64,000 bases of DNA from Gemmatimonas aurantiaca T-27 (GTDB lineage Bacteria; Gemmatimonadota; Gemmatimonadetes; Gemmatimonadales; Gemmatimonadaceae): NCBI RefSeq assembly GCF_000010305.1, contig NC_012489.1, forward strand, positions 4,161,646 to 4,225,645, read 5' to 3'. The notes under the pieces are model-generated. The model made no database searches. It had not been told where the DNA came from and saw nothing but the letters and a program-made list of their open reading frames with translations. A program made the translations under genes and the position numbers. This document shows, piece by piece, positions 28,839 through 52,301 of the stretch; position 1 is the first letter of the stretch; every line of letters starts with the position of its first letter.

Positions 28839-28866
28839 GCGACTGCTGCACGGTACTCCGATGTGA

Positions 28867-28903
28867 AACAAAGGGCGTCCCGATGCGGGGCGCCCTTTGT
28901 TGT
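28867..28903 (+). terminator. Rho-independent terminator after the LVIVD gene
   Basis: A perfect 11-base stem (AACAAAGGGCG, 28867-28877, with 28891-28901) is flanked by A-rich and T-rich sequence. Its arms are the same as those of the terminator at 30104-30147. Confidence 0.8.
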
Positions 28904-28935
28904 TGTATGTGGTTTTTCCCCCACTCCCCACCGAC

Positions 28936-30103: not shown

Positions 30104-30147
30104 AACAACAAAGGGCGCCCCGGATAGGGACGCCCTTTGTTGTTTTC
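30104..30147. terminator. Bidirectional terminator between DUF2911 and the carboxypeptidase-regulatory gene
   Basis: A perfect 14-base stem (30104-30117 with 30131-30144, arm AACAACAAAGGGCG) lies between convergent genes, with A-run on one side and T-run on the other, so it can serve both. Confidence 0.8.
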
Positions 30148-32639: not shown

Positions 32640-33097
32640 CACACCAGCGATCGACGAAGCGAGCGAGCTGTCCGAGCCGCCCGAAGGCCACGCCAGAGCG
32701 GTCGGCACTCCTTGGCCGTGTCAGGCAGAGAGGGACGGCTCCCGAGATGGTCGTGCAGGAGATGTTGAGGCGTTTGAGCCACGCTCACTCGACCAACGTG
32801 CGAGGTATTCCGGGTTCGCCGGACATCGTCGCAGCTGATCACTCGCGGGCCGTCTTCGTCCACGGCTGCTACTGGCACCGCCATCCCGGATGCCCAGCGA
32901 GCAGCACACCGAGGAACAACGCGCAGTTCTGGAAGGAGAAGTTCGAGGCGAACGTGCGACGCGACCAGCGGAAAGCGAGGGAGCTCCGAAAGCTCGGATA
33001 TCGGGTGATGACCGTGTGGGAGTGTCAGACCAAGTCGCGGGAGAAGCGCGCACGACTCGAGCGTCGTCTCGACCGATTCTTCCGAGAGGAGAAGTAG
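32636..33097 (+). CDS. vsr: Very-short-patch repair endonuclease (Vsr family)
   Basis: This is a 153-residue endonuclease. Vsr signatures are IPGSPDIVAADHSRAVFVHG continuing CYWHRHPGC, then NNAQFWKEKFEANVRRDQRK and GYRVMTVWECQ. Vsr enzymes nick T:G mismatches that arise by deamination of 5-methylcytosine and are usually encoded beside C5 methyltransferases, as here. The Asp in SPDIV and the H/C metal ligands are present. The ATG at 32636 overlaps the AbiEii stop, and the TAG stop overlaps the GTG of the methyltransferase gene by one base. An Arg/Lys-rich N-terminal 30 residues precede the core. Confidence 0.9.
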   Translation: MTHQRSTKRASCPSRPKATPERSALLGRVRQRGTAPEMVVQEMLRRLSHAHSTNVRGIPGSPDIVAADHSRAVFVHGCYWHRHPGCPASSTPRNNAQFWKEKFEANVRRDQRKARELRKLGYRVMTVWECQTKSREKRARLERRLDRFFREEK

Positions 33098-34428
33098 TGT
33101 CACGCACAATCGCAAAACGGTTATCTGAGTCGCCAGACGGTGGACGGAAGCTGTCGGCCGGTCGCGATACACTGATTACAGCGCGTACACTGGAGTCGTA
33201 CAGGGTGTCATCGGACGGCCGTGCGATCGAGCGCGTCATCGCGCTGCGAGCCGGCGGCACGGCCTGCACACGAATCGCCATAAATCCCGACGAATCGCTC
33301 GAAGGATCCCAGGACGCGCTCGCCGATCGCTTCGATCGAGCATTCCTTTGCACGACATCACGCCCACGAATCGGGGCGCGCCAGCGAGAGGTTCGAGTCG
33401 TCGACCTGTTCTCGGGATGTGGTGCGATGTCCCTGGGTATTTGGGAGGCGAGTCGGGCCATTGGCGCGCGCATGGTGCCGGTTATGGCTCTCGACTTCAA
33501 CGACAAGGCCCTGCGCGTCTACGAAGACAATTTCCCGAATGTCTGGGCCATTTCGAAGCCGGTCGAGTCGATCCTCGACGGCGCGCTTGGAGCCCCTGCG
33601 TCGCCGGCAGAACGTGACCTGGTCGCTCGATTGGGACATGTGGATGTGCTGATAGGCGGCCCCCCCTGCCAAGGGCACAGCAATCTCAATAACCACACGC
33701 GGCGAGAGGATCCGAAGAACAAGCTCTACGACCGGATGGCGCGGTTCGCGGAACTTGTCGAGCCGACGCACGTCATAATCGAGAACGTGTCAGCGGTATT
33801 GCACGACAAGGGTAGGGTCGTTGATCGCACTATCGCACATCTCAAAAAGTTGAAGTACTCGATCGACAGCAAGGTGGTGGAGGCGGTCGCGATCGGAGTT
33901 CCACAGCGTCGGCGGCGCCACTTCGTCGTGGCGTCGCGGGAGATCCAACCCGATATCGACGCGACGATCGATGCGTTCACCCGAGGCGAGCGGAGCGTCT
34001 TCTGGGCGATCGGCGACCTCGCATGCGTGTCCCGAGACGACCTTTTCGATCAGACGGGCACACCTTCGTCAGTCAACCGAGGGCGAATCAAGTACCTCTT
34101 CGACAACAAGCTGTACGAGTTGCCCGACGAGGAGCGGCCGGACTGCCACCGACTCGAAGAACACAGCTACAAGTCGGTGTACGGCCGGCTCCGCCCGAAT
34201 AAGCCCGCACAGACCATCACGAGCGGATTCCTCAGCATGGGGCAGGGGCGGTACGTGCACCCCACGAAGCGGCGGACCATCACCCCCCACGAAGCTGCCC
34301 GTCTGCAGTTCATCCCCGATTTCTTCGATTTCGGTAGCGTCTCGAAGCGAACGGCGCTCGCGGAGATGATCGGGAACGCAGTGCCCTCCAAACTGGCGTA
34401 CGTCCTCGGAGTAGAGCTACTCCGGTGA
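33097..34428 (+). CDS. DNA (cytosine-5) methyltransferase, DruM-like
   Basis: This is a 443-residue enzyme with the ordered C5-methyltransferase motifs: VVDLFSGCGAMSLG (I), ALDFN (II), IGGPPCQGHS with catalytic Cys191 (IV), IIENVSAV (VI), QRRRRHFVVAS (VIII), and IGNAVPSKLA (X). About 85 residues precede motif I. I start at the GTG at 33097, because AGGAG lies about 8 bases upstream and an earlier ATG would run inside vsr. The target site is unknown. In type II Druantia the first gene is such a methylase, and the three genes that follow fit that order. It could equally protect host DNA for the nuclease downstream. Confidence 0.9.
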   Translation: MSRTIAKRLSESPDGGRKLSAGRDTLITARTLESYRVSSDGRAIERVIALRAGGTACTRIAINPDESLEGSQDALADRFDRAFLCTTSRPRIGARQREVRVVDLFSGCGAMSLGIWEASRAIGARMVPVMALDFNDKALRVYEDNFPNVWAISKPVESILDGALGAPASPAERDLVARLGHVDVLIGGPPCQGHSNLNNHTRREDPKNKLYDRMARFAELVEPTHVIIENVSAVLHDKGRVVDRTIAHLKKLKYSIDSKVVEAVAIGVPQRRRRHFVVASREIQPDIDATIDAFTRGERSVFWAIGDLACVSRDDLFDQTGTPSSVNRGRIKYLFDNKLYELPDEERPDCHRLEEHSYKSVYGRLRPNKPAQTITSGFLSMGQGRYVHPTKRRTITPHEAARLQFIPDFFDFGSVSKRTALAEMIGNAVPSKLAYVLGVELLR

Positions 34429-34602: not shown

Positions 34603-37590
34603 GTGCCAATGAGGAGCCCCACCTTGGCGATTCCTACAATGCAACCCGGCGTTTGGAAGGATTGGGATGCGGCCGCGTGGGGACAGGCGCTGCTCCGCCA
34701 TTACTTTGTGGGTCACGATGCAAGACCGGTCTCTCGACTCTCGATCAGCCCGGAGGAACTCGCGAAGGCGGCAGGCGCCTCTGATGGTGAGGCCGCCCCG
34801 GCGCGAGACGCCTTTCTGACGGCAGTCCGGTGCTCGGCAGCGGCCTTCCGCCGCCACCTCTCCATCGCCAGTCTCGAGCGCCACGCGTGGAATCGGCACG
34901 GGCCGCCTCCGTTCCTCGCCTACCTCTTCTTCACATGCTTCGCGGCGGCGTCCCTCGATGCCGATACGGCTGATGAGGGGGTGTTTCGCGAGCGGTTGCG
35001 TCAGTTGCTCGGCCACCACGAGGGGACGAGCTATGCGCTGGGCGATCTCTCTCGGCTCTGGGAGGCCTTCGCGGCGTGGCTGGAGGGTCGCCACGATGCC
35101 GGGGAACCATACCGAACGCTGAGCCTCCCAGATCGCGGCCGGGCGACTCTGATTGGGTATTCCGTTCGGCTCGCATTTCCTCGGCGCGAGGATCGCCTGA
35201 AGCTCAGAGCCCTCTTGGCCGCCTCGAGCGCGGGACCAGCGCCGACCGTACCGGAGGCCTTCCAAGCAATCGCGCGCGCGAGAGATCGCTTCTCGACCGA
35301 CTTCCGCCACGTGTTCGACCGTGCGCGCGCCGCGCTGGCGAGTGGGCGTGATGTGCCGGAGCTGCAGGCGCTATGGTCCGCGATCCTCGAAGCGGCTGCG
35401 CTCGCCGATCGGCGGGACAGCGGAGACGTGCGAATCCGCTACCGGCTCCTTGCCCAAGAGGACGAATTGGGGCGCCTCGAGCCGTTCGTCGTCACGGCGG
35501 GTGTCCCATCGGGCACTCGCCACAGTGCGCAATTCTCGCCGCTCGACGAACCGTTCGACCAATTCGACCACCTCGTCTGCGCCACGGACGGAAGCACGGG
35601 CTTGATTGCGAATCTCTTGCTGATGGACGCGCTGGCGGACAAGGTCCCTGGTCTCGGCGCGTCTCCTATCTCGCGCGCGGTACGAGATGGCGTGCTTCTC
35701 TTCCGGCAGGTGGACAGCGCTACCTGGGAACTAGCAGTGACGCGACCGACCGAGGGCAAGGTGCGTGCGCTGGTACAAAGCCGCCTGTCTGATGCCTTCA
35801 TGCGCTTGGTAAGCGGCCCGCAGCGTCACCCGCGCGAAGCTCGATTCGAAAGTTGGTGCGAGGTCGCTGCCTTTGACGTCACGGAACTGGCGGAAGCGCG
35901 TGAAAGCACCGCCCCCGAGCTGGCTTCCGTGCGCTGTCTACAGCGAATCGAGATCGGCCCTCAACTGCAGCTTGTCGGCGGCGTTCGCGTAGACGGCGGC
36001 TACCTCGGTCTGAGCGGGCTACTGCCCGAAGTGTATTGTGCCGAAGCAGAACACGCCTCGATGTTCCGTCTCTCGGAGGAATCGGGGAAGCGGCGCTCGA
36101 CTCACATCGCGACACTAGAACCCGTAGGCGAGCGTCCCGGAGTCTTCGGGTGGTCTCCGGGTCACGGCGATCTGGAAGGTCCTTACGTCTTCGCAGGGAC
36201 CCGGGACGGCCGTGTCGTTGCACCGCGCGAGGTCCTCTTCCACTCCCGCGGGCTGAGTCATGATTACGAGTATCCCACCGATCCCGCGCGCTGGCTCGTC
36301 GAAGACTGCAGCACTGACGTCGCGCCGGCTGGTCTGGCGTCGGAGATCTTCCTCGCTACCGGAATCGGCAGCCCCACACGGTTGCCGGCGGTCGATGCAC
36401 TTGCGTTGGAGAGTGTCCATGTACTGAGGAACCGCTCGGTTGACGACAATAACGAGCACGATCGACTAGTCGAGGCATTGGCGGCGATCTTGATGGCTAG
36501 AAAGGGAATCGCCGAATCCGAGCTGATCGAAATTCTCGGAAAGATCGTCCGGCAGGCTACTGGTTTCGCCGTGTGGGGGATCATCCGTGGGTGGGTAGAG
36601 GCCGGGTACCTCGACTGCCTCACGAGGCGGCAGTGGCGCGGCCGTGTCTACTTCGCGCGCCGCCCGCAGCTAGTACTGATTCCCGACGCCGACCTTGGGT
36701 CGATCCGCGTCGTGCTGCACGGACTAGCGCCCTACCGTCTGCGTTCTGCGGCGCGGGAGGCGTTCTCGCGCGCGGGGGCGACGCCATTGTCCGCCTCGAG
36801 CCTGTCGCCGTACGTACCGGCTCCGCAGGCGTGGCGGTTCACGTCGGTCGAACATGTCAACGCGTCGATCGCGGAGTATCGCGAGCTAGGCACGGTGGGG
36901 ATGCGCGAGCCCGAGGAGCTCGTCGGAGACTTCGACTCCGCGGTTTCTGACGAGGCGCCGCTGCCGCCTGGCTACGAGTGCCAGCGCGTCTGGGATTGGG
37001 CAGCGGGCGGATTCCGCCGCGCGCATGGGAGTGCCGCTCCGGACGAGGTGCGCATCGAGTGCCATACGCGCAGCAACGGGCCGGATCGATACACCATTGT
37101 GGCGGGCTGTCGACGGCGTACAACACTCTCGCGCTCCTGGGCGCTGTTGGATGGCTTCCGGCTCGCGGGACGGCGTGCCTTCACCCCCGTCGGCTCCGTC
37201 GCGATTGTGCGTTCGGGAGACGATGGTCCTCAAGTGCCCCTTCCCATCGCGCGAGTCATCGGCCTCCGCGCGGGCATCGTCGGCGGCCCGGCGGAGACTG
37301 CGACGCTCGGCCAGCACTACGCGAACGCCACGGACGGCCCGAGCGCGCGACGCTGGCTTCTCGCATGGCTGAGCGGCTCGAGGGCAGACGAGCAAGTGGC
37401 GCGGCGCTTCGCGTGGCTACGTGCTGCTACCGACGCGCGCGGCCTGGACACCGTTCCCATTCCAGCCGACCTTCGGCGGCGTCTGCGCGGACTCCACGCC
37501 CTCCCGGACGCGCTTTCCATCGCGGAGCGACGTATTCCCCGACACCTGCTCGCTCACGTGCGACGCGCCGTCGCGCTGACGGAGTCCTGA
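34603..37590 (+). CDS. Large accessory protein of the Druantia-like locus (DruF position), function unknown
   Basis: This is a 995-residue protein without a recognised enzymatic motif. The N-terminal 300 residues are helical. The middle (about 320-620) is mixed and beta-rich. Residues about 620-690 (LVEALAAILMARKGIAESEL; WVEAGYLDCLTRRQWRGRVY) look like a winged helix. The C-terminal 250 residues carry RWLLAWLSGSRADEQVARRF. It lies 174 bases after the methylase and 3 bases before the next large protein. Position between methylase and the coiled-coil/AAA-like protein matches the DruF slot of type II Druantia (inference from order, not homology). The start is ambiguous: GTG 34603, ATG 34609 or ATG 34639. 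Confidence 0.75.
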   Translation: MPMRSPTLAIPTMQPGVWKDWDAAAWGQALLRHYFVGHDARPVSRLSISPEELAKAAGASDGEAAPARDAFLTAVRCSAAAFRRHLSIASLERHAWNRHGPPPFLAYLFFTCFAAASLDADTADEGVFRERLRQLLGHHEGTSYALGDLSRLWEAFAAWLEGRHDAGEPYRTLSLPDRGRATLIGYSVRLAFPRREDRLKLRALLAASSAGPAPTVPEAFQAIARARDRFSTDFRHVFDRARAALASGRDVPELQALWSAILEAAALADRRDSGDVRIRYRLLAQEDELGRLEPFVVTAGVPSGTRHSAQFSPLDEPFDQFDHLVCATDGSTGLIANLLLMDALADKVPGLGASPISRAVRDGVLLFRQVDSATWELAVTRPTEGKVRALVQSRLSDAFMRLVSGPQRHPREARFESWCEVAAFDVTELAEARESTAPELASVRCLQRIEIGPQLQLVGGVRVDGGYLGLSGLLPEVYCAEAEHASMFRLSEESGKRRSTHIATLEPVGERPGVFGWSPGHGDLEGPYVFAGTRDGRVVAPREVLFHSRGLSHDYEYPTDPARWLVEDCSTDVAPAGLASEIFLATGIGSPTRLPAVDALALESVHVLRNRSVDDNNEHDRLVEALAAILMARKGIAESELIEILGKIVRQATGFAVWGIIRGWVEAGYLDCLTRRQWRGRVYFARRPQLVLIPDADLGSIRVVLHGLAPYRLRSAAREAFSRAGATPLSASSLSPYVPAPQAWRFTSVEHVNASIAEYRELGTVGMREPEELVGDFDSAVSDEAPLPPGYECQRVWDWAAGGFRRAHGSAAPDEVRIECHTRSNGPDRYTIVAGCRRRTTLSRSWALLDGFRLAGRRAFTPVGSVAIVRSGDDGPQVPLPIARVIGLRAGIVGGPAETATLGQHYANATDGPSARRWLLAWLSGSRADEQVARRFAWLRAATDARGLDTVPIPADLRRRLRGLHALPDALSIAERRIPRHLLAHVRRAVALTES

Positions 37591-37593
37591 CGC

Positions 37594-39858
37594 ATGCCGA
37601 CGACGAATCGTTCGTACTACATCGGACGTGTGAAGCGCGCGCCGCACCGCGGTGACGCGTACCTCTATGCGAGCATTGAGCCGCTCGTCGAATCCGATCC
37701 GACCGGCAGCCAGTGGCTTGGCCCTCTTCGCAATTCGGTGTCCAGCTTCCCCAAGCGCGGTCTCGTGCACTGGAACAAGGCGCCCTTCCAACTTCAGTTA
37801 GGGAGCCTGTGGCAGTTCACCATCGACGAGCACCCATCGGCCGTACGCAGTGATCAGTTGGAGCATTTCCAGCTGGAAGATCCGCAGGAGCCGATCGAGG
37901 TGTTGGACCTCCGCGGATGGAGCGACGAGGAGAGGCTGCGGAGCGCCATTACCAGCGACGGAATTCCTCTCTCACCGCCGCCACTCGCACGGCGCGTGCT
38001 CCTCTGGCTCGCGAGCGACGTCTACGTCGGACCCCTGCTGCTCAAGCCCGCGACGGCTCCAGGCTTCTGGGTACTCGACAGGCCCGACGCGCATATCGAC
38101 GCCGCCCGCATGCCTGTCTGCCGTCTCTCGGCGTCCGACATCAATCGCGTCCCGCTCGAGGGCGAGCGCTGGTTCGTCTCGCCCCGCCTGGAACTCGGCC
38201 GGAGCGCGGGCATCCAGAATTGGACGTCGGACGCGCAGGTCACACGAAGCATTCTCACCAGGCTGCGCAAGATGGACCCCGACTTGGTCAGGGCGATCGG
38301 CGTGACGGAGAGTGTGTTCCGCGAATATCTCGACCACGTCGAGGGTGGTCGGATGGGTAGCGCCGACCCGGCAGTTGAGCGAGCGCGGGCCGACCGCCTT
38401 CGCGGCGTGCGTGACGCGATCCAACGCGATGAGGTGTTGCTGACGGAGGCGGTGGAGGCTCTACTCGGGACCGAGGCGGTACGGACAGAGGTCCAGAGTC
38501 AGGCGCATGCCAAGATCGATGGGGAGGTGCACTCGCGGAGGGCCGAGATCGACGCGGCACTCTCGGACTCGACAAAAGAGCTGGCGCGAGTACAGGACAT
38601 TCTGAATGCGAAACGCACCGAAGTCGCTGCGTTGGATGCGGCGCTCCTCGAGAAGCGCGGAGAGCTCGAAGCGAAGGTCGCCTCTTTCGATCAGGAGGTC
38701 TCGGCTAGGCTGGAGGAGATTGCCCGCCGGCCCGAGGCCATCTTCGCGGAGACAGCGGTTATGAGGGCCGTGCTAACGCCTGGTTTTGCGAGGCCAGTCG
38801 GTGGCGGGAACGGTGGGGTGCCCGCGTATCCACCCGCGCGTGCGGTCTCCAGACAGGTGCGGGATTTCGGAGAGTCGACGCTAGAGTTGGGTGATGAGAC
38901 TGACGTCAGGCGGGCCCTCGCGGTACACGCCGGCGCCAGCGCGCTGAGCCTGCAGGCGATGTTGAGCCTGCACGCGATGTTCGTCTCGGGTGCGGCTCCA
39001 GTAGTGGTGGGGTCGTACGCATACGATCTCCTGCGCGCCTACGCGTCCGCCGTGGCGGGCGGGCGACTTCACTGGATCCCCATCGGAAGCTCCACGATGG
39101 AGCCGTACGACCTGCTGGGCCGTTTCGACGGGGCGTCCGGCCGAATTATTCCGAGCCCGTCCGGTCTTCTCGATGTCGCGCGCGACGCGACGCAGTCGGG
39201 TCGCCTTCATGTCGTGGTGCTCGAAGGGTTCAACAGGGCACCCTGTGAGGCGTATCTGTCGCCGATCCTGGAGGCTGCGCAAGCAGGCCGACTGGGTGAC
39301 GCGTTGCGCGTGATCCCTCTGGCGAATCCTGAGCTGATCTCGGGCGACGACCCCTATCGCGAAGTGGCCCGTCTGGTATGGCCTTCTAACGTGCTGATCG
39401 CGTGCCTCCCGAGCGACGGCAGCGTGACGTTGCCGGTGCCACCGTCTGTCTGGCGTTTCGTTGCGCTGGTCGATGCCGACGACCGCGATCGCACGCAGCT
39501 TCCATCTGTGCCGGCAGAAAACGGCGTCGCGCCGCGCACAGAGATCCCGCCGACGCTCTGGAAGGAGAGCGTGGCCACCGCCCAAGCCCACGCTGCCCAT
39601 GACCGGGACGAGGTGACAACGGTCGCCCGTGCTCTGTCGCTCTCCGCTCGTGACGCAAGAGACGCGGTCCGTGTGCGGGAGGTGTTGTGCGCCAATGGGC
39701 TGCCTCACGGAGACGCAACCAGCGTCGCTCTCGTCGCCACGTTGATCGCGCGGTCTGGGTCAGATGCGAAGGCGATCGACGAGGGCCTACGCACGGCCGG
39801 CGTCGCGGTGCCCAGCTGGCAAACCATTCGTGCCGAGGCGCAACGCCTCCGCAGCTAA
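37594..39858 (+). CDS. Coiled-coil protein with a degenerate AAA-like domain (DruG position)
   Basis: This is a 754-residue protein. Residues 1-250 are an unrecognised mixed domain. A coiled coil follows (about 255-375, Glu/Ala/Leu heptads such as SDSTKELARVQDILNAKRTE). Residues about 440-610 resemble a McrB/MoxR-type AAA module (APVVVGSYAYDLLRAYA; MEPYDLLGRFDG; VVVLEGFNRAPCEAYLSPIL). The Walker A lysine is absent (GSYAYD instead of GxxGxGKS), and Walker B reads LEGFN rather than DEMN, so ATP hydrolysis is unlikely. It starts 3 bases after the preceding gene and 35 bases before the giant helicase, matching the DruG slot of type II Druantia. It probably acts as a structural or sensor subunit. 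Confidence 0.8.
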   Translation: MPTTNRSYYIGRVKRAPHRGDAYLYASIEPLVESDPTGSQWLGPLRNSVSSFPKRGLVHWNKAPFQLQLGSLWQFTIDEHPSAVRSDQLEHFQLEDPQEPIEVLDLRGWSDEERLRSAITSDGIPLSPPPLARRVLLWLASDVYVGPLLLKPATAPGFWVLDRPDAHIDAARMPVCRLSASDINRVPLEGERWFVSPRLELGRSAGIQNWTSDAQVTRSILTRLRKMDPDLVRAIGVTESVFREYLDHVEGGRMGSADPAVERARADRLRGVRDAIQRDEVLLTEAVEALLGTEAVRTEVQSQAHAKIDGEVHSRRAEIDAALSDSTKELARVQDILNAKRTEVAALDAALLEKRGELEAKVASFDQEVSARLEEIARRPEAIFAETAVMRAVLTPGFARPVGGGNGGVPAYPPARAVSRQVRDFGESTLELGDETDVRRALAVHAGASALSLQAMLSLHAMFVSGAAPVVVGSYAYDLLRAYASAVAGGRLHWIPIGSSTMEPYDLLGRFDGASGRIIPSPSGLLDVARDATQSGRLHVVVLEGFNRAPCEAYLSPILEAAQAGRLGDALRVIPLANPELISGDDPYREVARLVWPSNVLIACLPSDGSVTLPVPPSVWRFVALVDADDRDRTQLPSVPAENGVAPRTEIPPTLWKESVATAQAHAAHDRDEVTTVARALSLSARDARDAVRVREVLCANGLPHGDATSVALVATLIARSGSDAKAIDEGLRTAGVAVPSWQTIRAEAQRLRS

Positions 39859-39893: not shown

Positions 39894-42800
39894 TTGCAGG
39901 ACCCCATCGGCGGTTTCCAGCGCATCCGCGATCTTTACATCACATACCTCGAGACGGCATTCCGCATCCGCGACCCCGGCGTGTCGCGGGAACGGCGCGC
40001 GCTCCTGGAGCGGCCGAATACGTTCTGTACCGAGCCACTGATCGAGCCGTTGCCGCGCTACAGGAGCGTCGACTGGCTGCTCCACGAGCTGGCTAAGGCC
40101 GATCCCAAGGATTCACGGCTGCCTGGCTTCGACGTGCGTGAGCGTGCCGCATTCGCCGACCTGGCACTCGCGGGCCTCCTTGACTCGAAGCCCGCCAGGG
40201 AAGACAACGAATCCCGACTCGCTGAGTACGAGCTATACGAGCACCAGGCGCAGATGCTCTGGCGCGGAGTGCAACCCGGGCACCCCGGCATCGTCACATC
40301 GGGGACGGGCTCGGGAAAGACAGAATCATTCCTTTTGCCTGTGCTCGCCATGCTGGCGAAGGAGGCGGTGCGGTGGCCGGCACCGAGCGCGGACTACCTC
40401 AAGCGGCGCTGGTGGCAAACGGCGTCTGGCGAGCCCTATCCTAAGTACGACGGTGATGACGGCGTGCCGGATCGACCGACGGCCCGTTCGAAGAGCGCAT
40501 CTCCCTTCAAACTGCAGCGCGTGGGTGAGGCCGCCGGGCGCCCGGCCGCGGTGCGCGCGTTGATCCTCTACCCGATGAACGCGCTCGTCGAGGACCAGCT
40601 CGCGCGGATCCGTCGTGCGCTCGATTCCGATCTCGCGCGGCGGGTCATGGACCGCCACTTCGCCGGCAATCGCATCTTCTTCGGCCGCTACACCAGCGAC
40701 ACCCCCGTCACGGGCTACCATAAGCACCCACGCGCGGGCACCAAGGAGCACGAACGTCGTAACCGAAAGCTCGCCGAGCTGTTCCGCGCGTCAACCGCAA
40801 TTCAGCACGCGCAGGAGCGCGCGCGGATGATGGATAGAGAGCGAGGCGCCTCATCAGAGGACGTGCGCTTTCTCTTTCCGACTGTCGATGGCGGGGAGCT
40901 GACGTCGCGGTGGGACATGCAGGAGACGCCGCCCGATCTGCTGATCACAAACGTGAGCATGCTGAACGCCATTCTCGCGCGCGAGGTGGACTCTCCAATC
41001 CTCGACCGCACGCGAGATTGGCTGACGAGCGACGACGACGCTTACTTTTTCCTGGTTCTCGACGAGCTCCACCTGCAGCGCGGCTCGGCCGGCACCGAGA
41101 CGTCGTACCTGCTGCGCCTGCTTTTCGAGCGCCTAGGACTGACCGACCCGGCGCATCGTCATAAGCTGCGCATCCTCGCCTCCAGCGCCTCGCTGCCGAC
41201 GGAGGGTGAGGCCGGGCAGAGCAGTCTCGCGTATCTCTGGGACATGTTCGGCCGCCATGGCCTTCAGGCTGGGCCGCGTCGTGAGGTCGAGAATCCCCGA
41301 GAACGCTGGCACCACGCCGTCGTGCCTGGTGTGACGGTGGACGTTGAGCCATCGTCGCTCCAGCCGCTGGACCCGGCGCCCTTTTTCGCCCTGCTCGAGG
41401 CAGCGGGCGGCGACCTCCAGGACGAAGCCACGGCGCCCGCACCAGCCGAGGCCGAGGTCGAATGGCGAGGGGTTGCACGGGCACTCGGCGGTGAGAGGAT
41501 GGAAGCAGGCGATCTGGACGGAGTCGTGGCCGCCTGCGTACGTGAGGCCGGCGCACGCATCGCACACGCCTGTTGGAGCGAGGAGGAGAGGCGCGCTCGC
41601 GCGATGCCGCTGTCGAACATCGCGCGGCGCGTGTTCGGGCGTTCGGATGCTGATACGCTCTGCGCCGCGCGCGCGCTTCTGCTGGTCCGGGGCGCTGGAG
41701 ATGCGTGGGGCCGTTGGTGGGCCACCGAGCCCCCGACGGCGCCTTCGTTTCGCATCCACACCTTCTTCCGAAGCATCGAAGGTCTCTTCGCACCGGTCGG
41801 CGACCTCAGCGGTGTGCCTCCCCAGTGGCGATCGGCGAGCCGCCTTGTCGGGGAGCTCTCCGTCGAGCGTGGACAACGCTTTGCTCGCGTCGGGAGCGGG
41901 GATCCTGGGAGCCGCCTTGTCGAGCTGGTCTACTGCGAGTCGTGTGGCGAGCTGTTTCTCGGCGGCCGACGGGGAGGGCGCGAGACCGCAATCGAGCTCC
42001 TGCCGGCGGAACCCAACGTCGACAACCTCCCCGAGTCGGCCGGGCAGGATTTCTTCGAGACACTCTCCGCAGATGAATACGCGGTCTTCTGGCCTGTCGA
42101 GTCTTGGCCGGGCGTTCTGCCGAGCCCGAGGGATGACGTCCACGTTGGGGAGTGGAAGCGCGCCTACCTCGACCCCATCTCGGCCACGATCCAGTTTCCG
42201 CGAATCGGTAACGGAGTGCCCGAGGGACGCATCACCGGCTATGTCTGGGAGCGTGGCGATAGCCAGGATCGCCACAAGCGCCGAAAGGAATCGCCGGGGA
42301 CAGCGGTGCCTTACGAGTGTCCCGCCTGCGGCTCCGACTATTACTGGCGAAACGCGCCGCTGCGCCTCTCACCAATCCGGAACTTCCGAGCGGGTTTTGC
42401 TAAGACGACGCAGCTGCTCGCGACCGAGCTGTTCGATCTGCTAAGACTGCGCCAGCGTGAGCCGAAGCTGGTGGCCTTCTCGGACAGTCGTCAGGACGCC
42501 GCGAAGGCGGCACTCGATATCGAGCGCCGACATCATGAGGACCTCCGTCGCGAAGTGGTCGTGGAGAGCTTGCGCGCCGTTGCGGGAGCGCGCCCGGACG
42601 GGACGGCTCTGCAAGCGGAAAAGGAACGCCTGACGAAGGAGGCGCAGGCCCACGCCGTCGCGGGCAATCTTGCCGCGGCCTTCGCACTTAAGCCGCGGCT
42701 CGACGAACTCGAGACCGCCCTGGCCAACGGTGCGGATGGAGCCGATCTGCCGGTGGCGGTGGTCCTCGAGAGCACGCGAGAGAACCCGCGCTTCTTCGGC

Positions 42801-45800
42801 TCGCGCGCGACGCGCGAGCCACTGCGGCCACTTCTCGCGGAGTTCGTCAAGCTCGGTATTCACCCAACGGACCCGACGGGTACGAGGCGAATCAAGCTGC
42901 CCACCGGCGAGAGCGTTACGTGGGACTCGTTGTTCGTGATCGGCGAGGACGGCACGCCGGACTGGAAGGATGACGCCGTCGAGCAGGACAAGCTCAATGC
43001 CGCGCGCCAAGCGCTCGTTGGGGAAATGCAGCGGCTCGTGACCGGCGTGATCTTCAGCAAAACGTACTTCGCGCTAGAGGAGACGGGCGTTGCGTATCCT
43101 TCCGTCGGTCCGAGCGTCGCGAGCGAAGACCGAGAGTTGGCGGACGCCTTCCTGAGGGTATTCGCCGATTCCTATCGGCTCGTCGACAGTCAATACGAGG
43201 ACGCAGGGCAGAAAGACCCTTGGCGCAGTGCATTGGACATCCGCACCAATCAGCGGGCGCGTCGCTTGGCGTCGAACATCTGGGCACCCGACCAGGTGAA
43301 CGCGGGGCTCGAACGGGTGCTGAAGCTCCTCGCAAAGGCGGGACACCCGGAGGGCCTCGTCCTGACCTCCTCGCTCAGAATTCGCCTCGTGGAGGAGTCG
43401 GACCCCTACTGGCGGTGCGGGCGGTGCTCGCGCGTGCACCTTCACCGTGGAGTAAAGGTGTGCACGCGATGCTTCCAGCCGTTGCCGGAGGAGCAGAGCG
43501 GTGTGAGCGGCGACCTGCACGGTGAGAGCTACTTGGCAAAGCGTATCGAGCGCGACAACGCGACGTTCCGACTCCGCTGCGAGGAGCTCACCGGACAGAC
43601 GGAGGACCCGGCGGACCGGCAGCGTCGCTTCAAGAACATCGTGCTCGACAGCGACGGACGTGTGGACCGGCGGCTGCGCGAGGCAGCACGCGTGATCGAC
43701 ATGCTCGCCGTGACCACGACGATGGAGGTTGGCATCGACATCGGGCCCTTGCAGGCCGTCTTCCAGGCGAACATGCCACCCCAGCGGTTCAACTACCAAC
43801 AGCGCGTTGGCCGGGCTGGCCGCCGCCGTCAGGCGTTCTCCATGGCGCTGACCGTATGCCGATCCAAGAGCCACGATCTGCATTACTTCTGGCACCCTGA
43901 GGCCATCACGGGCGACCCGCCGCCGCCGCCATTTCTCACGAAGCGGCAGCCGACGGCGGCGAAGCGATTTCTGCGCAAAGCGTGGCTGTGGGCTGCGTTT
44001 CACAAGATCCGGTCAGACCAGGGCGTTGGGTACGCCGGCGACGATCTGTCGGACATCCACGGCGAGTACGTGCCCGCGGGCGACTACTTCGACGCAGCCA
44101 ACGGCTGGAGAGCACGTTTGGCGGGAGCACTTGACGCGACGCGCGACTACCGCGCGCGCGCGCTGGCGGTGCTGGTTGAGGATTCGGACCTTGGCAGAAG
44201 CCCAGAGCTCGAAGGGCTCGAGAGCGATTGCCTACTCCTCGAGATCGACAAGGTGAGCTCAAGTGGTGTGAGACAGGAGGGCCTCGCACACACACTCGCC
44301 GAGGCGGGTCTACTCCCGATGTATGGAATGCCGACGCGTGTGAGGAATCTCTACTTGGGGGACACGACGCGACCTGACGACCAGTTCTGGCGGACGTGGC
44401 GGAAGGTGGATCGCGATCTCGACCTGGCAGTGTTCGAGTTCGCCCCCGGCTCGGTGTTGACCAAGGACAAGCAGGAACACCTGTGCGTGGGCTTCACCGG
44501 CGCGCTTCCCGACTACATCTCGCGGAGCGGCCCGGTGCCGGAGATCAAACCCAGAGAGGATGCTTTCGCCGATCCCTTCTGGATGGTGCAGTGCGGGTAC
44601 TGCGGCGCGTGGCATCGGTTCGATGAGGATCCAAGCGCCACGGGGGCGGAATGCGGCTCGTGCGAACGAGTTCTCGACGTGACGACTGCCGGCGAGTGTC
44701 GCACACCCAACGGGTTCCGGACGGACTTCTGGCCACGCGAGGTCGAGGAGCAGCTCCTCACAGCGGGGCGACACCGCCTGAACACCGCGGAGGGCAAGGC
44801 AGTGCGGCTTGAGGCCGAGAAGAAGTCGAACCTGAGCTATGCCTATCAGTCGCAGTCGAGGCTTTACCGTCTGAATCGCGGACGTCTGGACGCGGCGGGC
44901 GGAGGTCGATGGCTCGGCTTCGACGTCACCGCAGGGGCACAGCGCTATGGGCGTGGCGGACGTGCGCGGCTCCTCGACCAGTGGATCGCCACCAACGACA
45001 AGCTCCCTGTACCAGTGGGCTTCGACCCAAACCCGGGTGTGGCGCCGCTGCAGAGTATCTGGCTGGCCGCTCCGAAAACGACGGACGCACTCTTCGTCGC
45101 ACCGAGTTCGGTGGCGCGAGGCCTCCGTTCGCACATGGTAGGCGCCGGTCAACAGCGCATCACGTCAGTGCGTGCCGCCGCGATCTCGGCCGCCTACATG
45201 CTGGCCAATCGTGCGGCGCTGGAGCTCGACATCGATCCCGAGGAGTTCGACGTCCTCGAGCCTCGTATATACCGGGCCTGGAACGGTCAGGCGGTACCGC
45301 TGCTTCAGATCGCCGACCACCTCGTGAACGGCGCAGGATTCGTGGAGCGTCTGGCGGCTCAGGGGAGTGGTGGCCGACCGCTGGTCGCGGAGCTCGTCTC
45401 ATCCATCGTTCGCGACGAAAGCCGGTACCCGCTTTCGGAGCTGTTGCGGAAGGACGCACACCAGAACCACCCGACCGAGTGCGATCAGGCCTGCTACCGC
45501 TGCCTGCAGCGGTACAGCAACCAGTCGTACCACGGTCTGTTGGACTGGCGGCTCGGCCTCGCCTTCCTGCAGCTGCTCGACGACCCGGAGTGGAGGTGCG
45601 GCCTCGATGGCGACTTCTCGAGCCCCGCACTGCGTGATTGGACCGCGCTCGCGCGCCGGTACGTCGAGGATCTCGCGCGGTTCTCCCCTGTGGAGCAGCG
45701 CGACGCTGCCGGGCTCGTCGCGTTCCGGATTCAGGGCGTGGGGGACTGGGCGGTGGTCGTGCACCCGCTCTGGGATACCGACGCGCTCGAGGGCATTGTC

Positions 45801-45923
45801 GGGAAGGCGGTCGACGAGATCGAACGCACCAGCGGGAGCGTGCCCGTGTTCGTCGACACCTTCGAACTCGCCCGCCGGCTGGTCTCGGTGCGCCAGGACC
45901 TGCTCAACCCCAGGCCGGCGTGA
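39894..45923 (+). CDS. Giant DEAH-type helicase with DUF1998-like C-terminus (DruE-like)
   Basis: This is a 2009-residue helicase. SGTGSGKTESF (about residue 140) is the Walker A, LYPMNALVEDQLARIRR motif Ia, FFLVLDELHLQRGS (about 389) the DEAH-type box, ILASSASLP motif III, TTTMEVGIDIG motif V, and QQRVGRAGRRRQAF (about 1304) motif VI. Four Zn-ribbon-like Cys clusters occur (CPACG; CGRCSRVH with CTRC; CGYCGAWHRF with CGSC; ECDQACYRC). The last belongs to a DUF1998-type end. Size and order match Druantia DruE. A TTG at 39894, six bases after GGGAGGG, is the best start. Helicase-driven DNA handling during phage defence is expected; the mechanism is unknown. Confidence 0.85.
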   Translation: MQDPIGGFQRIRDLYITYLETAFRIRDPGVSRERRALLERPNTFCTEPLIEPLPRYRSVDWLLHELAKADPKDSRLPGFDVRERAAFADLALAGLLDSKPAREDNESRLAEYELYEHQAQMLWRGVQPGHPGIVTSGTGSGKTESFLLPVLAMLAKEAVRWPAPSADYLKRRWWQTASGEPYPKYDGDDGVPDRPTARSKSASPFKLQRVGEAAGRPAAVRALILYPMNALVEDQLARIRRALDSDLARRVMDRHFAGNRIFFGRYTSDTPVTGYHKHPRAGTKEHERRNRKLAELFRASTAIQHAQERARMMDRERGASSEDVRFLFPTVDGGELTSRWDMQETPPDLLITNVSMLNAILAREVDSPILDRTRDWLTSDDDAYFFLVLDELHLQRGSAGTETSYLLRLLFERLGLTDPAHRHKLRILASSASLPTEGEAGQSSLAYLWDMFGRHGLQAGPRREVENPRERWHHAVVPGVTVDVEPSSLQPLDPAPFFALLEAAGGDLQDEATAPAPAEAEVEWRGVARALGGERMEAGDLDGVVAACVREAGARIAHACWSEEERRARAMPLSNIARRVFGRSDADTLCAARALLLVRGAGDAWGRWWATEPPTAPSFRIHTFFRSIEGLFAPVGDLSGVPPQWRSASRLVGELSVERGQRFARVGSGDPGSRLVELVYCESCGELFLGGRRGGRETAIELLPAEPNVDNLPESAGQDFFETLSADEYAVFWPVESWPGVLPSPRDDVHVGEWKRAYLDPISATIQFPRIGNGVPEGRITGYVWERGDSQDRHKRRKESPGTAVPYECPACGSDYYWRNAPLRLSPIRNFRAGFAKTTQLLATELFDLLRLRQREPKLVAFSDSRQDAAKAALDIERRHHEDLRREVVVESLRAVAGARPDGTALQAEKERLTKEAQAHAVAGNLAAAFALKPRLDELETALANGADGADLPVAVVLESTRENPRFFGSRATREPLRPLLAEFVKLGIHPTDPTGTRRIKLPTGESVTWDSLFVIGEDGTPDWKDDAVEQDKLNAARQALVGEMQRLVTGVIFSKTYFALEETGVAYPSVGPSVASEDRELADAFLRVFADSYRLVDSQYEDAGQKDPWRSALDIRTNQRARRLASNIWAPDQVNAGLERVLKLLAKAGHPEGLVLTSSLRIRLVEESDPYWRCGRCSRVHLHRGVKVCTRCFQPLPEEQSGVSGDLHGESYLAKRIERDNATFRLRCEELTGQTEDPADRQRRFKNIVLDSDGRVDRRLREAARVIDMLAVTTTMEVGIDIGPLQAVFQANMPPQRFNYQQRVGRAGRRRQAFSMALTVCRSKSHDLHYFWHPEAITGDPPPPPFLTKRQPTAAKRFLRKAWLWAAFHKIRSDQGVGYAGDDLSDIHGEYVPAGDYFDAANGWRARLAGALDATRDYRARALAVLVEDSDLGRSPELEGLESDCLLLEIDKVSSSGVRQEGLAHTLAEAGLLPMYGMPTRVRNLYLGDTTRPDDQFWRTWRKVDRDLDLAVFEFAPGSVLTKDKQEHLCVGFTGALPDYISRSGPVPEIKPREDAFADPFWMVQCGYCGAWHRFDEDPSATGAECGSCERVLDVTTAGECRTPNGFRTDFWPREVEEQLLTAGRHRLNTAEGKAVRLEAEKKSNLSYAYQSQSRLYRLNRGRLDAAGGGRWLGFDVTAGAQRYGRGGRARLLDQWIATNDKLPVPVGFDPNPGVAPLQSIWLAAPKTTDALFVAPSSVARGLRSHMVGAGQQRITSVRAAAISAAYMLANRAALELDIDPEEFDVLEPRIYRAWNGQAVPLLQIADHLVNGAGFVERLAAQGSGGRPLVAELVSSIVRDESRYPLSELLRKDAHQNHPTECDQACYRCLQRYSNQSYHGLLDWRLGLAFLQLLDDPEWRCGLDGDFSSPALRDWTALARRYVEDLARFSPVEQRDAAGLVAFRIQGVGDWAVVVHPLWDTDALEGIVGKAVDEIERTSGSVPVFVDTFELARRLVSVRQDLLNPRPA

Positions 45924-47131
45924 CGCCTCTGCCCGAGCCGCTCGTACAGTGCCGAGTGCCTGCGACGTTCTCCCCATCGCAGCTCGCGTTCGGGGAGCAG
46001 TGTCTGCTGCGAGCCGTGCTAGGATCCACGCGCGACCTTCCGACTCTAACGGCACACCCGGCAGCCGCCCTCGGTAGCGTCTTTCACAAGCTGCTAGAAT
46101 TGGCGGTGCGCGGAGAGATCCCGCGGACCGGGACGCCCGGCGAGGACGCCGAGCGCACTCTCGACCGCCTGCTCGATGCGGAGGACGCACGCCTCGCCGC
46201 CATGCGGCCGGGCGATCCACCGCGGCTCCGGGAGGTGTTTCCGCCGCTCATGTGGCGCCGGAAACGTCGCGTCGTGCTCGACCTCGCGGAGAAGTACCTC
46301 TCGGGGGCTGTGCCCAGAGCCGCCACCAGCTCCGGGGGCGGGGCTCGGAACGCGAGGGACCTTCACCAGAACGGCGGCTGGGCCGAGGTGCAGATCGAGG
46401 TGCCCGCGCTGCGGTTGTGGGGGAGGGCGGACATGATTCAGCGGACCGCCGGCGACGTCGTGATACGCGATCTGAAGACAGGGCGCGTGGTCACCAACGA
46501 CGGGGACGTGCTGCCACACATCGAACGCCAGATGCGACTGTACGGTGCGATGGCGCACGCGGTCTGGCCCTCGGCACAGGTCTCGCTGCTCGTGGACCAC
46601 GGTGTCGAGCGCGAGGTCGGGTTCGCGCGTGAGCACGAGGCGGACGTCCTGAAGTGGCTCAGCGATGTCCTCGCGCGGCTGCCCGCGGAGAGCGATGTCA
46701 ATGCGGAGGATCTCGCGACACCCGGGGAGGCATGCGACGGATGCGCGCACCGCCACATCTGTCCCGCGTACAGGAAGTTGGCATTCGGCTTCTGGCGTGG
46801 TGAGGCGCCGATGCGCATGCCACTGGACACGTGGGGCGAGGTGATGGCGATTAACCCGCGTGGCGCACTCGCCGACCTCACCTTGCACGACGCTGCGGGC
46901 CGTACCGTGAAAGTATTCGGTTTGGCTGCGTTCCGCGTCTCGTCGATGCAGCCCGGCGATCCGGTCTGGCTCTTCGGGCTGCGCACCCGAGACAAACGTG
47001 GCGGCCCCGCGTCGTGGCGCCACCCGCACAACTTCTTCGAAGTGGCGGACGACGATCCATTCGCGCGGGCTTGGACACTGGAGGTCTTCGCGAGCAACTC
47101 CCCGATGTCCGCCACTCGATCACCCGGTTAG
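45920..47131 (+). CDS. Cas4/AddB-like Fe-S PD-(D/E)XK nuclease with C-terminal OB-like domain
   Basis: This is a 403-residue nuclease. FSPSQLAFGEQC opens a RecB-type fold. LGSVFHKLLE gives the conserved His56, GRADMI (Asp171) and VIRDLKTGR (D184, K186) the metal/catalytic core, and QMRLYGAM the QxxxY motif. CDGCAHRHIC (C272, C275, C281), with C28, can hold a 4Fe-4S cluster as in Cas4/AddB. Residues about 303-375 look like an OB-fold (WGEVMAINPRGALADLTLHD). The start is GTG 45920, overlapping the helicase stop as GTGA, so it is coupled to DruE. It probably supplies nuclease activity to the system; the canonical Druantia gene sets I know of do not name this gene. Confidence 0.83.
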   Translation: MTPLPEPLVQCRVPATFSPSQLAFGEQCLLRAVLGSTRDLPTLTAHPAAALGSVFHKLLELAVRGEIPRTGTPGEDAERTLDRLLDAEDARLAAMRPGDPPRLREVFPPLMWRRKRRVVLDLAEKYLSGAVPRAATSSGGGARNARDLHQNGGWAEVQIEVPALRLWGRADMIQRTAGDVVIRDLKTGRVVTNDGDVLPHIERQMRLYGAMAHAVWPSAQVSLLVDHGVEREVGFAREHEADVLKWLSDVLARLPAESDVNAEDLATPGEACDGCAHRHICPAYRKLAFGFWRGEAPMRMPLDTWGEVMAINPRGALADLTLHDAAGRTVKVFGLAAFRVSSMQPGDPVWLFGLRTRDKRGGPASWRHPHNFFEVADDDPFARAWTLEVFASNSPMSATRSPG

Positions 47132-47245
47132 CGGCGCGAGCTACCGAGGCGCTCGCCTAGGGTAAATGGCGCATGCGCTGCGCCACAGTAGATGGACCGG
47201 TGGAGAAGCGATGCGAGTCGGCTTACACGACCAACACTACAGAGC

Positions 47246-49336
47246 ATGAAGGCAACCGAAGCGAAGCTGCTCACATTCTTGAAGAAGTCACCGCAGTTCG
47301 TCATTCCCATTTACCAGCGTACGTACTCATGGACCATCACCGAGTGCCAGCAGCTCTGGGATGACATCGTGCGGGCCGGTGCTAGAGACGACGTGAGCGT
47401 GCACTTCATCGGCTCGATCGTCTATGTCGAGGAAGGGCTTTCGCAGGTCACCAGCCACGCCCCGCTGCTGGTAATCGATGGTCAGCAGCGCCTCACCACG
47501 CTCACCATCGTGTTGGCGAACCTCGCGAGAGCAGTTGGCGATGACGAGCCGGTCGACGGCTTCAGCGGTCGAAAGATCACCAACTACTACTTGCTCAATC
47601 CTGAAGAACGAGGCGACCGCAGGTACAAGCTGCTCCTGACGCAAACAGACCGCCCGTCGCTGATCGCGCTCGTGGACGGAGCGCCAGCACCGAGCGACGC
47701 GTCGCTTCGTGTGATGGAAAACAGTGAGTTCTTCAGAAAGCGCATCGAGGAGTGCGCGGGCGACTTCGGGCCTGTGTGCAAGGGCCTCGCGAAGCTCGTG
47801 ATCGTTGACATCGCTCTGAGTCGAGATCACGACAATCCGCAACTGATCTTCGAAAGCATGAACTCGACTGGCAAAGAGCTCAGTCAAGCGGATCTGATTC
47901 GCAACTTCGTCCTCATGGGACTGGAGCCGCGGCTTCAGACCGAACTTTACGAACAGTACTGGCACCCGATGGAACGGGCGTTTGGCCAGCGAGCCTACAG
48001 TAGCATGTTCGACGGGTTCATGCGTCACTATCTCACGGTCAAGACAGGGGAGATTCCGAACCTCGGAGACGTGTATGCCGCATTCAAGGCGTATGCGATG
48101 TCGGCACCGGTTGCTCACGAGAAGGTCGAAGTACTCGTCGCGGATCTCAACAGATGGGCACTGCGGTTCTGCCGCATCGCTCTCGGGCAGGAGCCGGACC
48201 GCGATCTCCGTGAGGCGTTCCACGATCTGCGGGAACTCAAGGTGGATGTCGCCTATCCGTTTCTGCTAGAGCTGTACGCAGATTACGACGCAGGGCGTCT
48301 CACGCGTCACGACTTCTTGCAAGCAATCCGCCTACTCGAGGCGTACGTCTTCAGGCGTGCTATCTGTGCCATTCCCACCAACTCGCTGAACAAGACATTC
48401 GCCAACCTTGCGCGCGGAGTCCGTAAGGAGCGTTATCTGGAGAGTATCAAGGCGCACCTGCTGCTATTGCGCTCGTATCGGCGCTTTCCGGACGATGTCG
48501 AGTTCCGCCGCTGCTTCTTGACCCGAGAGCTCTATCTCCAGAAGGTGCGCAGCTACACGCTCCGAAAACTCGAGAACCACCAGAGGAAGGAGCGTGTCGG
48601 GCCGGAAGAGTACACCATAGAACATATCCTACCGCAAAACGAGAACCTGTCCGTGGCGTGGAGAGAGTCTTTGGGCCAGGACTGGCAGGTGATTCATCAG
48701 AAGTGGCTGCACACGATCGGCAATCTGACCCTCACAGGATACAACACCGAGTACAGCGACAGGCCCTTCCCGGAAAAGCGCGACATGCCCGGTGGTTTCC
48801 GAGAAAGCCCCCTGCGCCTGAATGCGGGCCTGGGACAGGTGGAGGTCTGGAACGAGGACGCGATCACCCATCGAGGGGAGCAACTCGTAGAGAAGGGGGT
48901 ATTGGTATGGGCAGCACCGCACCTGAGTCCCGAGGTCCTCGAGGAGTATCGAGCCACGAGAACACGCGAGGTGACGTATACGATCGACGATCACCACTCG
49001 CTCGTAAGCGGTAAGGCGGCAGCCCTATTCGAAGCCTTCCGGCGCGAGGTGCTCGAGCTCGGCTCGTGCGTGTCCGAGGAGTTCCTGAAGTACTATGTCG
49101 CCTACAAGGCCGAAACGAACTTCGTCGATGTGTATCCTCAGGCGTCACGTCTACGACTGATTCTCAATCTTCCCTTTGAGGAACTCGATGACCCCGAGAA
49201 TCGATGTGCAAACGTCGCCGGGTACCGGCTGAACGGAGAGGTCAAGGTACACATTGCCGAATTGAACGAATTGCCGTATGTGATGGGTCTGATTAGGCAG
49301 TCGTTCGAACGGCAGGTCGGTGGCATGGAAGCCTAG
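47246..49336 (+). CDS. GmrSD-type (DUF262/DUF1524/DUF5655) restriction endonuclease
   Basis: This is a 696-residue protein. IPIYQRTYSWT (residues 20-30) and IDGQQRLTTLTIVL (about 77-90) are the DUF262 (GmrS-like, nucleotide-handling) signatures. YTIEHILPQN (about 455-464) followed by WLHTIGNLTLTGYNTEYSDR is the DUF1524 HNH-type nuclease (GmrD-like) with its His and Asn. The last 115 residues (AAALFEAFRREVLELGSC; FVDVYPQASRLRLILNLPFE) match DUF5655. Single-chain GmrSD enzymes cut modified (for example glucosylated hydroxymethylcytosine) phage DNA. A 114-base gap separates it from the nuclease gene, so it probably has its own promoter. GC appears lower here than in the neighbours. Confidence 0.87.
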   Translation: MKATEAKLLTFLKKSPQFVIPIYQRTYSWTITECQQLWDDIVRAGARDDVSVHFIGSIVYVEEGLSQVTSHAPLLVIDGQQRLTTLTIVLANLARAVGDDEPVDGFSGRKITNYYLLNPEERGDRRYKLLLTQTDRPSLIALVDGAPAPSDASLRVMENSEFFRKRIEECAGDFGPVCKGLAKLVIVDIALSRDHDNPQLIFESMNSTGKELSQADLIRNFVLMGLEPRLQTELYEQYWHPMERAFGQRAYSSMFDGFMRHYLTVKTGEIPNLGDVYAAFKAYAMSAPVAHEKVEVLVADLNRWALRFCRIALGQEPDRDLREAFHDLRELKVDVAYPFLLELYADYDAGRLTRHDFLQAIRLLEAYVFRRAICAIPTNSLNKTFANLARGVRKERYLESIKAHLLLLRSYRRFPDDVEFRRCFLTRELYLQKVRSYTLRKLENHQRKERVGPEEYTIEHILPQNENLSVAWRESLGQDWQVIHQKWLHTIGNLTLTGYNTEYSDRPFPEKRDMPGGFRESPLRLNAGLGQVEVWNEDAITHRGEQLVEKGVLVWAAPHLSPEVLEEYRATRTREVTYTIDDHHSLVSGKAAALFEAFRREVLELGSCVSEEFLKYYVAYKAETNFVDVYPQASRLRLILNLPFEELDDPENRCANVAGYRLNGEVKVHIAELNELPYVMGLIRQSFERQVGGMEA

Positions 49337-50630: not shown

Positions 50631-52301
50631 CTAGTTGCGCACCAACTTCTTGTACTTGATCCGATGCGGCTGGTCCGCGTCCGGGCCCTTCCGGCGCTTG
50701 AGGTCCTCGATGTACGCGCCGTAGTTCCCCTCGAACCACACCGTTTCCGAATCGCCTTCGAACGCCAGAATGTGCGTGGCCACACGATCCAGGAACCAGC
50801 GATCGTGGGAAATGATCACCGCGCAGCCGGAGAAATCGAGCACGGCTTCTTCCAGCGCGCGCAACGTATCGACGTCGAGATCGTTCGTCGGTTCGTCGAG
50901 CAGCAGCAGGTTGCCACCCTGCATCACGGTCTTCGCGAGATGCAACCGGTTGCGCTCACCACCCGAGAGATTCGCCACCAGCTTCTGCTGGTCGGCGCCC
51001 TTGAAGTTGAAGCTCGCCGCGTACGCGCGTGAATTGAGCTCACGCTTGCCCACCGGAATGGTTTCGCGACCACCAGAGATCTCTTCCCACAACGTGCGCT
51101 TGCCTTCGAGCGTGCGATGCTGATCCTGATAGCTGATCTGCACCGTTTCACCAACCACGAGCTCGCCCGACTCCGGCTGTTCGAGCCCGTTGATCATGCG
51201 GAACAGCGTGGTCTTACCCGCACCGTTGGGGCCGATGATGCCCACGATGCCGGCACGCGGCAGATCGAAGTTGAGATTGTCGAACAGCAGCTTGTCACCG
51301 AACGACTTGCGCAGCCCCTTGGCGCGCACGACGTCGTTACCGAGACGCGGAGCCGGCGGAATCACGATTTCGTTCTGCATCACGCGGTCGTTCTGCGCTT
51401 CGCTGGCCAGATCCTCATAGGCCTGCAGACGGGCCTTGTTCTTGGCCTGACGCGCGCGCGGTGACATGCGTACCCACTCGAGTTCCTTCTGCAGCGTCTT
51501 CTGACGCGCACTGGCCTGCTTCTCTTCCTGCGACAGGCGCTGCTGCTTCTGCTCGAGCCAACCCGAGTAGTTGCCTTCGTACGGCACGCCCTTGCCACGA
51601 TCGAGCTCGAGGATCCACTTGGCCACGTTGTCCAGGAAGTAGCGATCGTGGGTGATGGCCACGACCGTGCCCGGGAACCGCTCGAGGTGATGCTCCAGCC
51701 ACGCGACGCTTTCCGCATCGAGGTGGTTGGTGGGTTCGTCGAGCAACAGCATGTCCGGCTCTTCCAGCAGGATCTTGCAGAGCGCCACACGGCGCTTCTC
51801 ACCACCCGACAAGTGCGTCACCGCGGCATCACCCGGCGGCAGACGCAACGCGTCCATCGCCACGTCGATCTTGTTGTCGAGATTCCAGAGATCGTGCTGG
51901 TCGATGTACTCCTGCAGCTTGCCCTGCCGTTCCATGAGCTTGTCGAAGTCCGCATCGGGCTCGGCGAACTGCAACGAGATCGCATTGAACTCGTTGAGCG
52001 CATCGCGCTGCGCCTTCACGGCAAGCTCCACATTGCCGCGCACATCGAGCGACGCGTCGAGTTCGGGCTCCTGTGACAGATAGCCGATGCGCGTGCCCTT
52101 GTGCGCCCAGGCTTCACCCTGAAACTCGGTGTCCACGCCGGCCATGATGCGCAGCAACGACGACTTACCGGCGCCGTTCGGGCCGAGCACGCCGATCTTC
52201 GCGCCGGGATAGAAGGAGAGCCAGATATCGTCGAGGATGATGCGCGAAGGGGGAACCACCTTGCGCAGCGCCTTCATGACGTAGATGAACTGCGGAGCCA
52301 T
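50631..52301 (-). CDS. ettA: ABC-F ATPase, energy-dependent translational throttle EttA
   Basis: This 556-residue protein has two ABC modules: GPNGAGKSSLLRIMAG and later GPNGAGKTTLFRMING for Walker A; LSGGEKRRVALCKILL and LSGGERNRLHLAKTVM signatures; LLLDEPTNHLD and LLLDEPTNDLD Walker B. An arm insertion in the first module (ALNEFNAISLQFAEPDADFD) and the linker of about 80 residues with EWVRMSPRARQAKNKARLQA are those of EttA. EttA binds the ribosomal E site and gates elongation by ADP/ATP ratio. No membrane segments are present. I use the ATG complementary to 52299-52301 (MAPQFIYVMKALRKVVPP), the family's usual start. It lies to the right of the island edge and is likely a core gene. Confidence 0.93.
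   Translation of the reverse strand: MAPQFIYVMKALRKVVPPSRIILDDIWLSFYPGAKIGVLGPNGAGKSSLLRIMAGVDTEFQGEAWAHKGTRIGYLSQEPELDASLDVRGNVELAVKAQRDALNEFNAISLQFAEPDADFDKLMERQGKLQEYIDQHDLWNLDNKIDVAMDALRLPPGDAAVTHLSGGEKRRVALCKILLEEPDMLLLDEPTNHLDAESVAWLEHHLERFPGTVVAITHDRYFLDNVAKWILELDRGKGVPYEGNYSGWLEQKQQRLSQEEKQASARQKTLQKELEWVRMSPRARQAKNKARLQAYEDLASEAQNDRVMQNEIVIPPAPRLGNDVVRAKGLRKSFGDKLLFDNLNFDLPRAGIVGIIGPNGAGKTTLFRMINGLEQPESGELVVGETVQISYQDQHRTLEGKRTLWEEISGGRETIPVGKRELNSRAYAASFNFKGADQQKLVANLSGGERNRLHLAKTVMQGGNLLLLDEPTNDLDVDTLRALEEAVLDFSGCAVIISHDRWFLDRVATHILAFEGDSETVWFEGNYGAYIEDLKRRKGPDADQPHRIKYKKLVRN

Follow-up and report, generated by a model that had tools for sequence, protein, structure and literature searches.

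Published papers describe DruE, an SF2 helicase of the YprA family, as the common core of Druantia. In Druantia III, DruE engages 3′-tailed DNA and is described as a helicase–nuclease effector (PMC13192584). A preprint assigns a dead Vsr nuclease to the C-terminal domain of DruE; this assignment was not confirmed by sequence, as hhalign comparison of the C-terminal 126–130 residues of DruE with Vsr proteins from the collected loci returned a probability of 2%. A related arrangement is seen in MrfAB (YprA–YprB), where a YprA-family helicase is adjoined by a separately encoded nuclease (PMC12458937). The YprA-family paper makes no mention of Cas4, RecB or AddB, and a literature search found no explanation of how type II Druantia damages phage DNA.

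A DruE2-like helicase is present in PDB entry 9wae and six more entries. DruF, DruG and DruK chains were not detected by sequence in these entries, and a literature search for them found no paper text. PADLOC-DB v2.0.0 holds three DruK profiles, PDLC00058–PDLC00060, whose name, in contrast to DruE2 or DruL4, lacks a type number. DruK is listed there as a profile only, with no description of the family, and a literature search found no paper naming DruK together with Druantia.

The window analysed here is a 64,000-nucleotide stretch of Gemmatimonas aurantiaca T-27 (contig NC_012489.1, positions 4,161,646–4,225,645), and it carries the forward-strand genes druM-druF-druG-druE-druK in that order. 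The druM homologue (32890–34428) encodes a 512-residue C5-cytosine DNA methyltransferase (DruM2, 1.4e-158; Pfam DNA_methylase, 1.5e-42), and the druF homologue (34603–37590) a 995-residue protein (PADLOC DruF2, 1.5e-57); a druF homologue lies 5′ of druE at nearly all DruE loci. The 754-residue product of the druG homologue (37594–39858) gave no direct match to PADLOC DruG and was assigned through an intermediate homologue, an iterative profile tying it to proteins at the same position elsewhere, such as that of locus L048 (DruG2, 1.1e-258). The druE gene (39894–45923) encodes a type II-like YprA-family SF2 helicase of 2009 residues, which matches PADLOC DruE2 at E = 0 and, by phmmer, PDB 9wae at E = 0 over residues 2–1996. 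Its start is most likely the TTG at 39894, preceded by a gggagg ribosome-binding site, rather than the longest-ORF start at 39687, because DruE profiles begin at 39894 within the longest ORF. With DruM, DruF, DruG (through the intermediate) and DruE all present, the locus is by its gene content Druantia type II plus DruK. At several other loci (L009, L010, L070, L072, L074, L080 and others), two genes upstream of druE occupy the positions of type IV DruF4 and DruL, and both match a profile grown from the window's full-length DruF, which suggests that DruF4–DruL is a split form of DruF.

The operon lies in a variable part of the genome. The flanks at 26421–28897 and 50638–52301 are conserved in a genome of the same genus (G144, locus L143), where they stand 7.7 kb apart, versus 21.8 kb in the window (28898–50637); the locus is considered variable since G144 has unrelated genes between the shared flanks. 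For the genus, at least 22 genomes were listed, and the nuclease occurs only in the window genome and in G363/L012; the nearest relative, L012, is a Gemmatimonadaceae contig that is apparently the same as one in the congeneric G363. Near the left edge of the variable region, two terminator-like palindromes that are 84% similar, at 28867–28904 and 30107–30144 (AACAAAGGGCG...CGCCCTTTGTT), flank a DUF2911 gene. The same region holds an AbiEi/AbiEii toxin–antitoxin pair (31195–32639, forward strand) just 5′ of druM. A GmrSD/DUF262-type restriction protein with an extra DUF5655 domain is encoded directly 3′ of druK (47192–49336, forward strand); it was rejected as a component of the system because no homologue turned up at any other DruE locus.

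The druK gene (45920–47131, forward strand) encodes 403 residues from a GTG start and is present as a single copy in the source genome, a single 4.64-Mb contig. Its GTG (45920–45922) and the druE TGA (45921–45923) overlap by 4 bases, GTGA being common to both genes, in keeping with the overlap described in the original prediction. The protein matches PDLC00060 (6.4e-20) and PDLC00058 (5.6e-19) and adjoins DruE, which by membership makes it the PADLOC-DB DruK of a Druantia type II operon. The single profiles cover the window protein in part (E about 1e-19). All six relatives tested also match DruK profiles; for the L045 protein, the match to PDLC00058 (2.1e-62) spans almost the full length, tail included.

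The nuclease core of DruK (residues 10–290; 45947–46789) is matched by Pfam PDDEXK_1 over residues 16–282 (2.9e-28). Among 21 aligned DruE-linked copies (the window protein and others 20–47% identical to it), residues C28, G52, H56, E156, G168, D171, K186, G188, Q204, Y208, C272, C275, R278, C281, Y284, D303 and G306 are invariant. Residue 184 is Asp in 19 copies and Glu in two, so that the (D/E)xK motif is intact in all 21. The RecB-type motifs originally read from the single sequence (H56, D171 of GxxD, D184-x-K186 and Q204xxxY208) are therefore kept in the aligned copies, as are the four cysteines, one N-terminal (C28) and three C-terminal (C272-x2-C275-x5-C281), with a constant CxxCx5CxxY spacing.

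The AlphaFold2 model of DruK (mean pLDDT 91.7, pTM 0.89) contains the PD-(D/E)XK core that the original prediction called for. Its closest structural matches are Cas4 (Z 14.0 over 207 residues, rmsd 4.0; a Cas4–Cas1 fusion), AdnA (Z 13.5), Dna2 (Z 12.2), AddB (Z 11.5) and Exo5 (Z 10.6). A profile search of PDB sequences placed AdnA top (1.5e-15), followed by Dna2 (8.7e-8) and 4ic1, an archaeal Cas4-type protein (1.4e-4); outside Druantia, the sequences nearest to the core are those of AdnA, Dna2 and 1050-residue AddB-like proteins. Of the profiles proposed for checking the family, PDDEXK_1 was positive and Cas4 was not, TIGR00372 (NCBIfam) scoring 16.5 bits against a curated cutoff of 65. By its motifs and predicted fold, DruK is an Fe-S-type RecB-family PD-(D/E)XK nuclease, and would be expected to cut DNA and to bind iron.

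The C-terminal tail of DruK (residues 300–395; 46817–47104) had been described as OB-like, and structure prediction and structure search bear this out. Residues 288–403 were modelled as a separate domain, using 20 relatives (pLDDT 78.6). The top 50 structural matches of this domain are all OB proteins, mostly binders of single-stranded DNA, including SSB, CST and, as the best match, a telomere end-binding protein (Z 8.2 over 87 residues, rmsd 3.2). A Z of 7–8 is weak by itself; the OB call is made because the match list is uniform and Z is still 6.8 at rank 50. The DruK tail probably grips single-stranded DNA, judging from the modelled fold. Across all ORFs of the collected loci, a profile of the tail matches only DruE-linked nucleases and gives no match to AddB-like or orphan RecB-type proteins; as the profile was built from DruE-linked copies, this specificity holds at the level of sequence.

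The distribution of DruK was surveyed from an alignment scan for DruE with one genome per species, of which the best 80 of 527 confirmed places were used. Adding eight plasmid loci and the window gave 86 DruE proteins in the tree, 81 of them with enough downstream sequence to be assessed. A nuclease lies directly 3′ of druE at 24 of these 81 loci and is missing from 57; the DruE sample is not random, so 24/81 is not a prevalence, and the 24 include two copies cut by contig ends (L053, L090) and a broken Paenibacillus copy (L071). The latter (14582–15629 of L071) is spread over several frames, that of a close relative (L073) being intact, and reflects either gene disruption or faulty assembly. 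The gap between druE and druK is nearly always −113 to +12 bases, and often exactly the 4-base overlap seen in the window. Hosts come from about ten phyla and include Gemmatimonadota, Acidobacteriota, Planctomycetota, Myxococcota, Actinomycetota, Pseudomonadota, Bacteroidota, Bacillota, Omnitrophota, Binatia and archaea. None of the 44 assessable loci of the classical proteobacterial type II clade has DruK, which is also missing from the cyanobacterial type IV-like loci in the sample. The proposed tight coupling to a DruE-type helicase, and its recurrence among DruE relatives, are thus upheld outside the proteobacterial clade, and the gene indeed stands outside the textbook type II set.

A nuclease-first profile search of about 1,630 genomes from five phyla gave a matching picture. 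All matches at E ≤ 1e-28 adjoin DruE, including five loci outside the profile set (G266, G477, G795, G742 and the contig-end-cut G313); G402 and G225 have more distant nucleases that again adjoin DruE-like helicases. Each of 12 genomes or records carrying the nuclease has one full-length copy, and phage records gave no match to it. Four RecB-like nucleases with weaker matches (G037, G064, G085 and G862; E about 1e-18 to 1e-25) were set aside as other family members, because they have no DruE nearby and no match to the OB tail. In the window's own phylum, two further loci (L124, L125) carry distant DruE-like helicases with divergent PD-(D/E)XK nucleases downstream; one of the helicases is apparently split into two genes.

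DruE and DruK appear to have been inherited together. Their pairwise distances are correlated (Mantel r 0.90, n = 21; none of 5000 permutations as high), and the value is still 0.88 when only the type II-like set is considered. The main groups of the DruE tree reappear in the DruK tree (the window with L012; L013 with L014; L043 with L054 and L065), which also sets the type IV-like copies apart. Some nodes of these trees are weak, the deep ones included, and the roots were placed by midpoint; a single early DruE–DruK association followed by losses is the simplest reading, but DruK may have been gained several times. DruK is probably ancient in type II/IV Druantia, with losses in the proteobacterial type II lineage and in several more.

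It is proposed, with a probability of about 0.7, that DruK is the nuclease subunit of the Druantia type II operon and that DruE and DruK form a split helicase–nuclease effector. DruE would load on single-strand-containing DNA arising in phage infection and then translocate, with DruK as its partner and the OB tail either holding single-stranded DNA or docking on DruE. The Fe-S-stapled RecB-type core would cut the strand freed by DruE, leading to degradation of phage DNA, while DruF and DruG may sense or regulate and DruM may mark host DNA. The physical DruE–DruK complex, its polarity and its role in defence are what we infer for the pair. DruK most likely supplies the cut that DruE lacks, because the published picture of DruE is of an SF2 helicase whose own nuclease domain is reportedly dead. 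Being co-inherited with DruE and having an intact predicted active site and an OB tail, DruK is a ready candidate for the missing cutting step.

With the nuclease missing from 57 of the 81 loci, DruE must be able to work on its own in many systems. DruK could be an optional accessory, a separate nuclease that adds range or clears fragments, with DruE and DruF/DruG sufficient for defence; its absence from all 44 proteobacterial type II loci and from the cyanobacterial type IV-like loci fits such a role, as does a PADLOC name that carries no type number. The tight gene coupling, often a 4-base overlap, and the matching trees across about ten phyla point instead to a subunit, and an accessory role is considered unlikely. 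A replacement nuclease was sought in DruK-less loci, where the families recurring 3′ of druE are Vsr (eight loci) and a methyltransferase (three loci), both separated by gaps, and no clear candidate emerged. By eye, the DruE C-terminal region does not differ between loci with and without DruK. A more specific history, in which DruK was the effector nuclease of the type II/IV ancestor and was lost in the reference proteobacterial type II lineage, is put forward tentatively, at somewhat less than even odds; if true, that lineage would have to rely on another nuclease, or on helicase action alone, to destroy or block phage DNA. A caution follows for the proteobacterial systems used as reference, which may be without an ancestral effector.

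Two further readings were weighed. DruE–DruK might be a helicase–nuclease of repair or recombination, like MrfAB or AddAB, lying by chance beside defence genes, since the YprA helicases include the MrfA–MrfB repair pair (PMC12458937) and the core's closest outside relatives are AdnA, Dna2 and AddB-like proteins. That is very improbable for a DruE that matches Druantia DruE2 at E = 0 and is accompanied by DruM, DruF, DruG, AbiE and GmrSD, at a locus that is patchy in the genus and whose place between the same flanks is taken by unrelated genes in a relative. Recruitment of a CRISPR-type Cas4 for DNA uptake or spacer-like processing is scarcely credible: the OB tail, the constant DruE partner and a TIGR00372 score far below its cutoff oppose it, whatever weight is given to the Cas4–Cas1 fusion as best structural match and to the weak Cas4 profile matches. 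The split-effector reading is therefore preferred. What was known already is DruK as a PADLOC profile; added here are the intact active site, the OB tail, the fixed coupling, the matched trees and the absence from the reference proteobacterial lineage.

Compared with described systems, the locus shares DruM, DruF, DruG and DruE, in that order, with Druantia type II, and differs from the proteobacterial loci in having a nuclease 3′ of druE. Many loci in the clade of Druantia type IV (DruE4, DruF4, DruL) likewise have an OB-tailed nuclease directly 3′ of druE; in that type DruL replaces DruM and DruG, whereas the window encodes DruM and DruG, along with one full-length DruF, and has no DruL. Cas4, the Dna2 nuclease domain and Exo5 have the same core with Fe-S-type cysteines, but have other partners, and the OB-tail sequence was found, among the collected loci, only in DruE-linked proteins.

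AddAB and AdnAB also combine a four-cysteine RecB-family nuclease with a helicase, and the original prediction accordingly pictured a resection machine like AddAB. This does not hold beyond analogy: in the 403 residues of DruK the nuclease begins at residue 10 with no long N-terminal helicase-like part, the OB tail is extra, and the partner DruE is an SF2 YprA-family helicase, not an SF1 AddA. For that reason MrfAB is nearer than AddAB, but MrfB is a 3′–5′ exonuclease of another fold, where DruE is partnered by a PD-(D/E)XK nuclease, and MrfAB serves repair. DruK may work like the AddAB or MrfAB pairs but belongs to neither.
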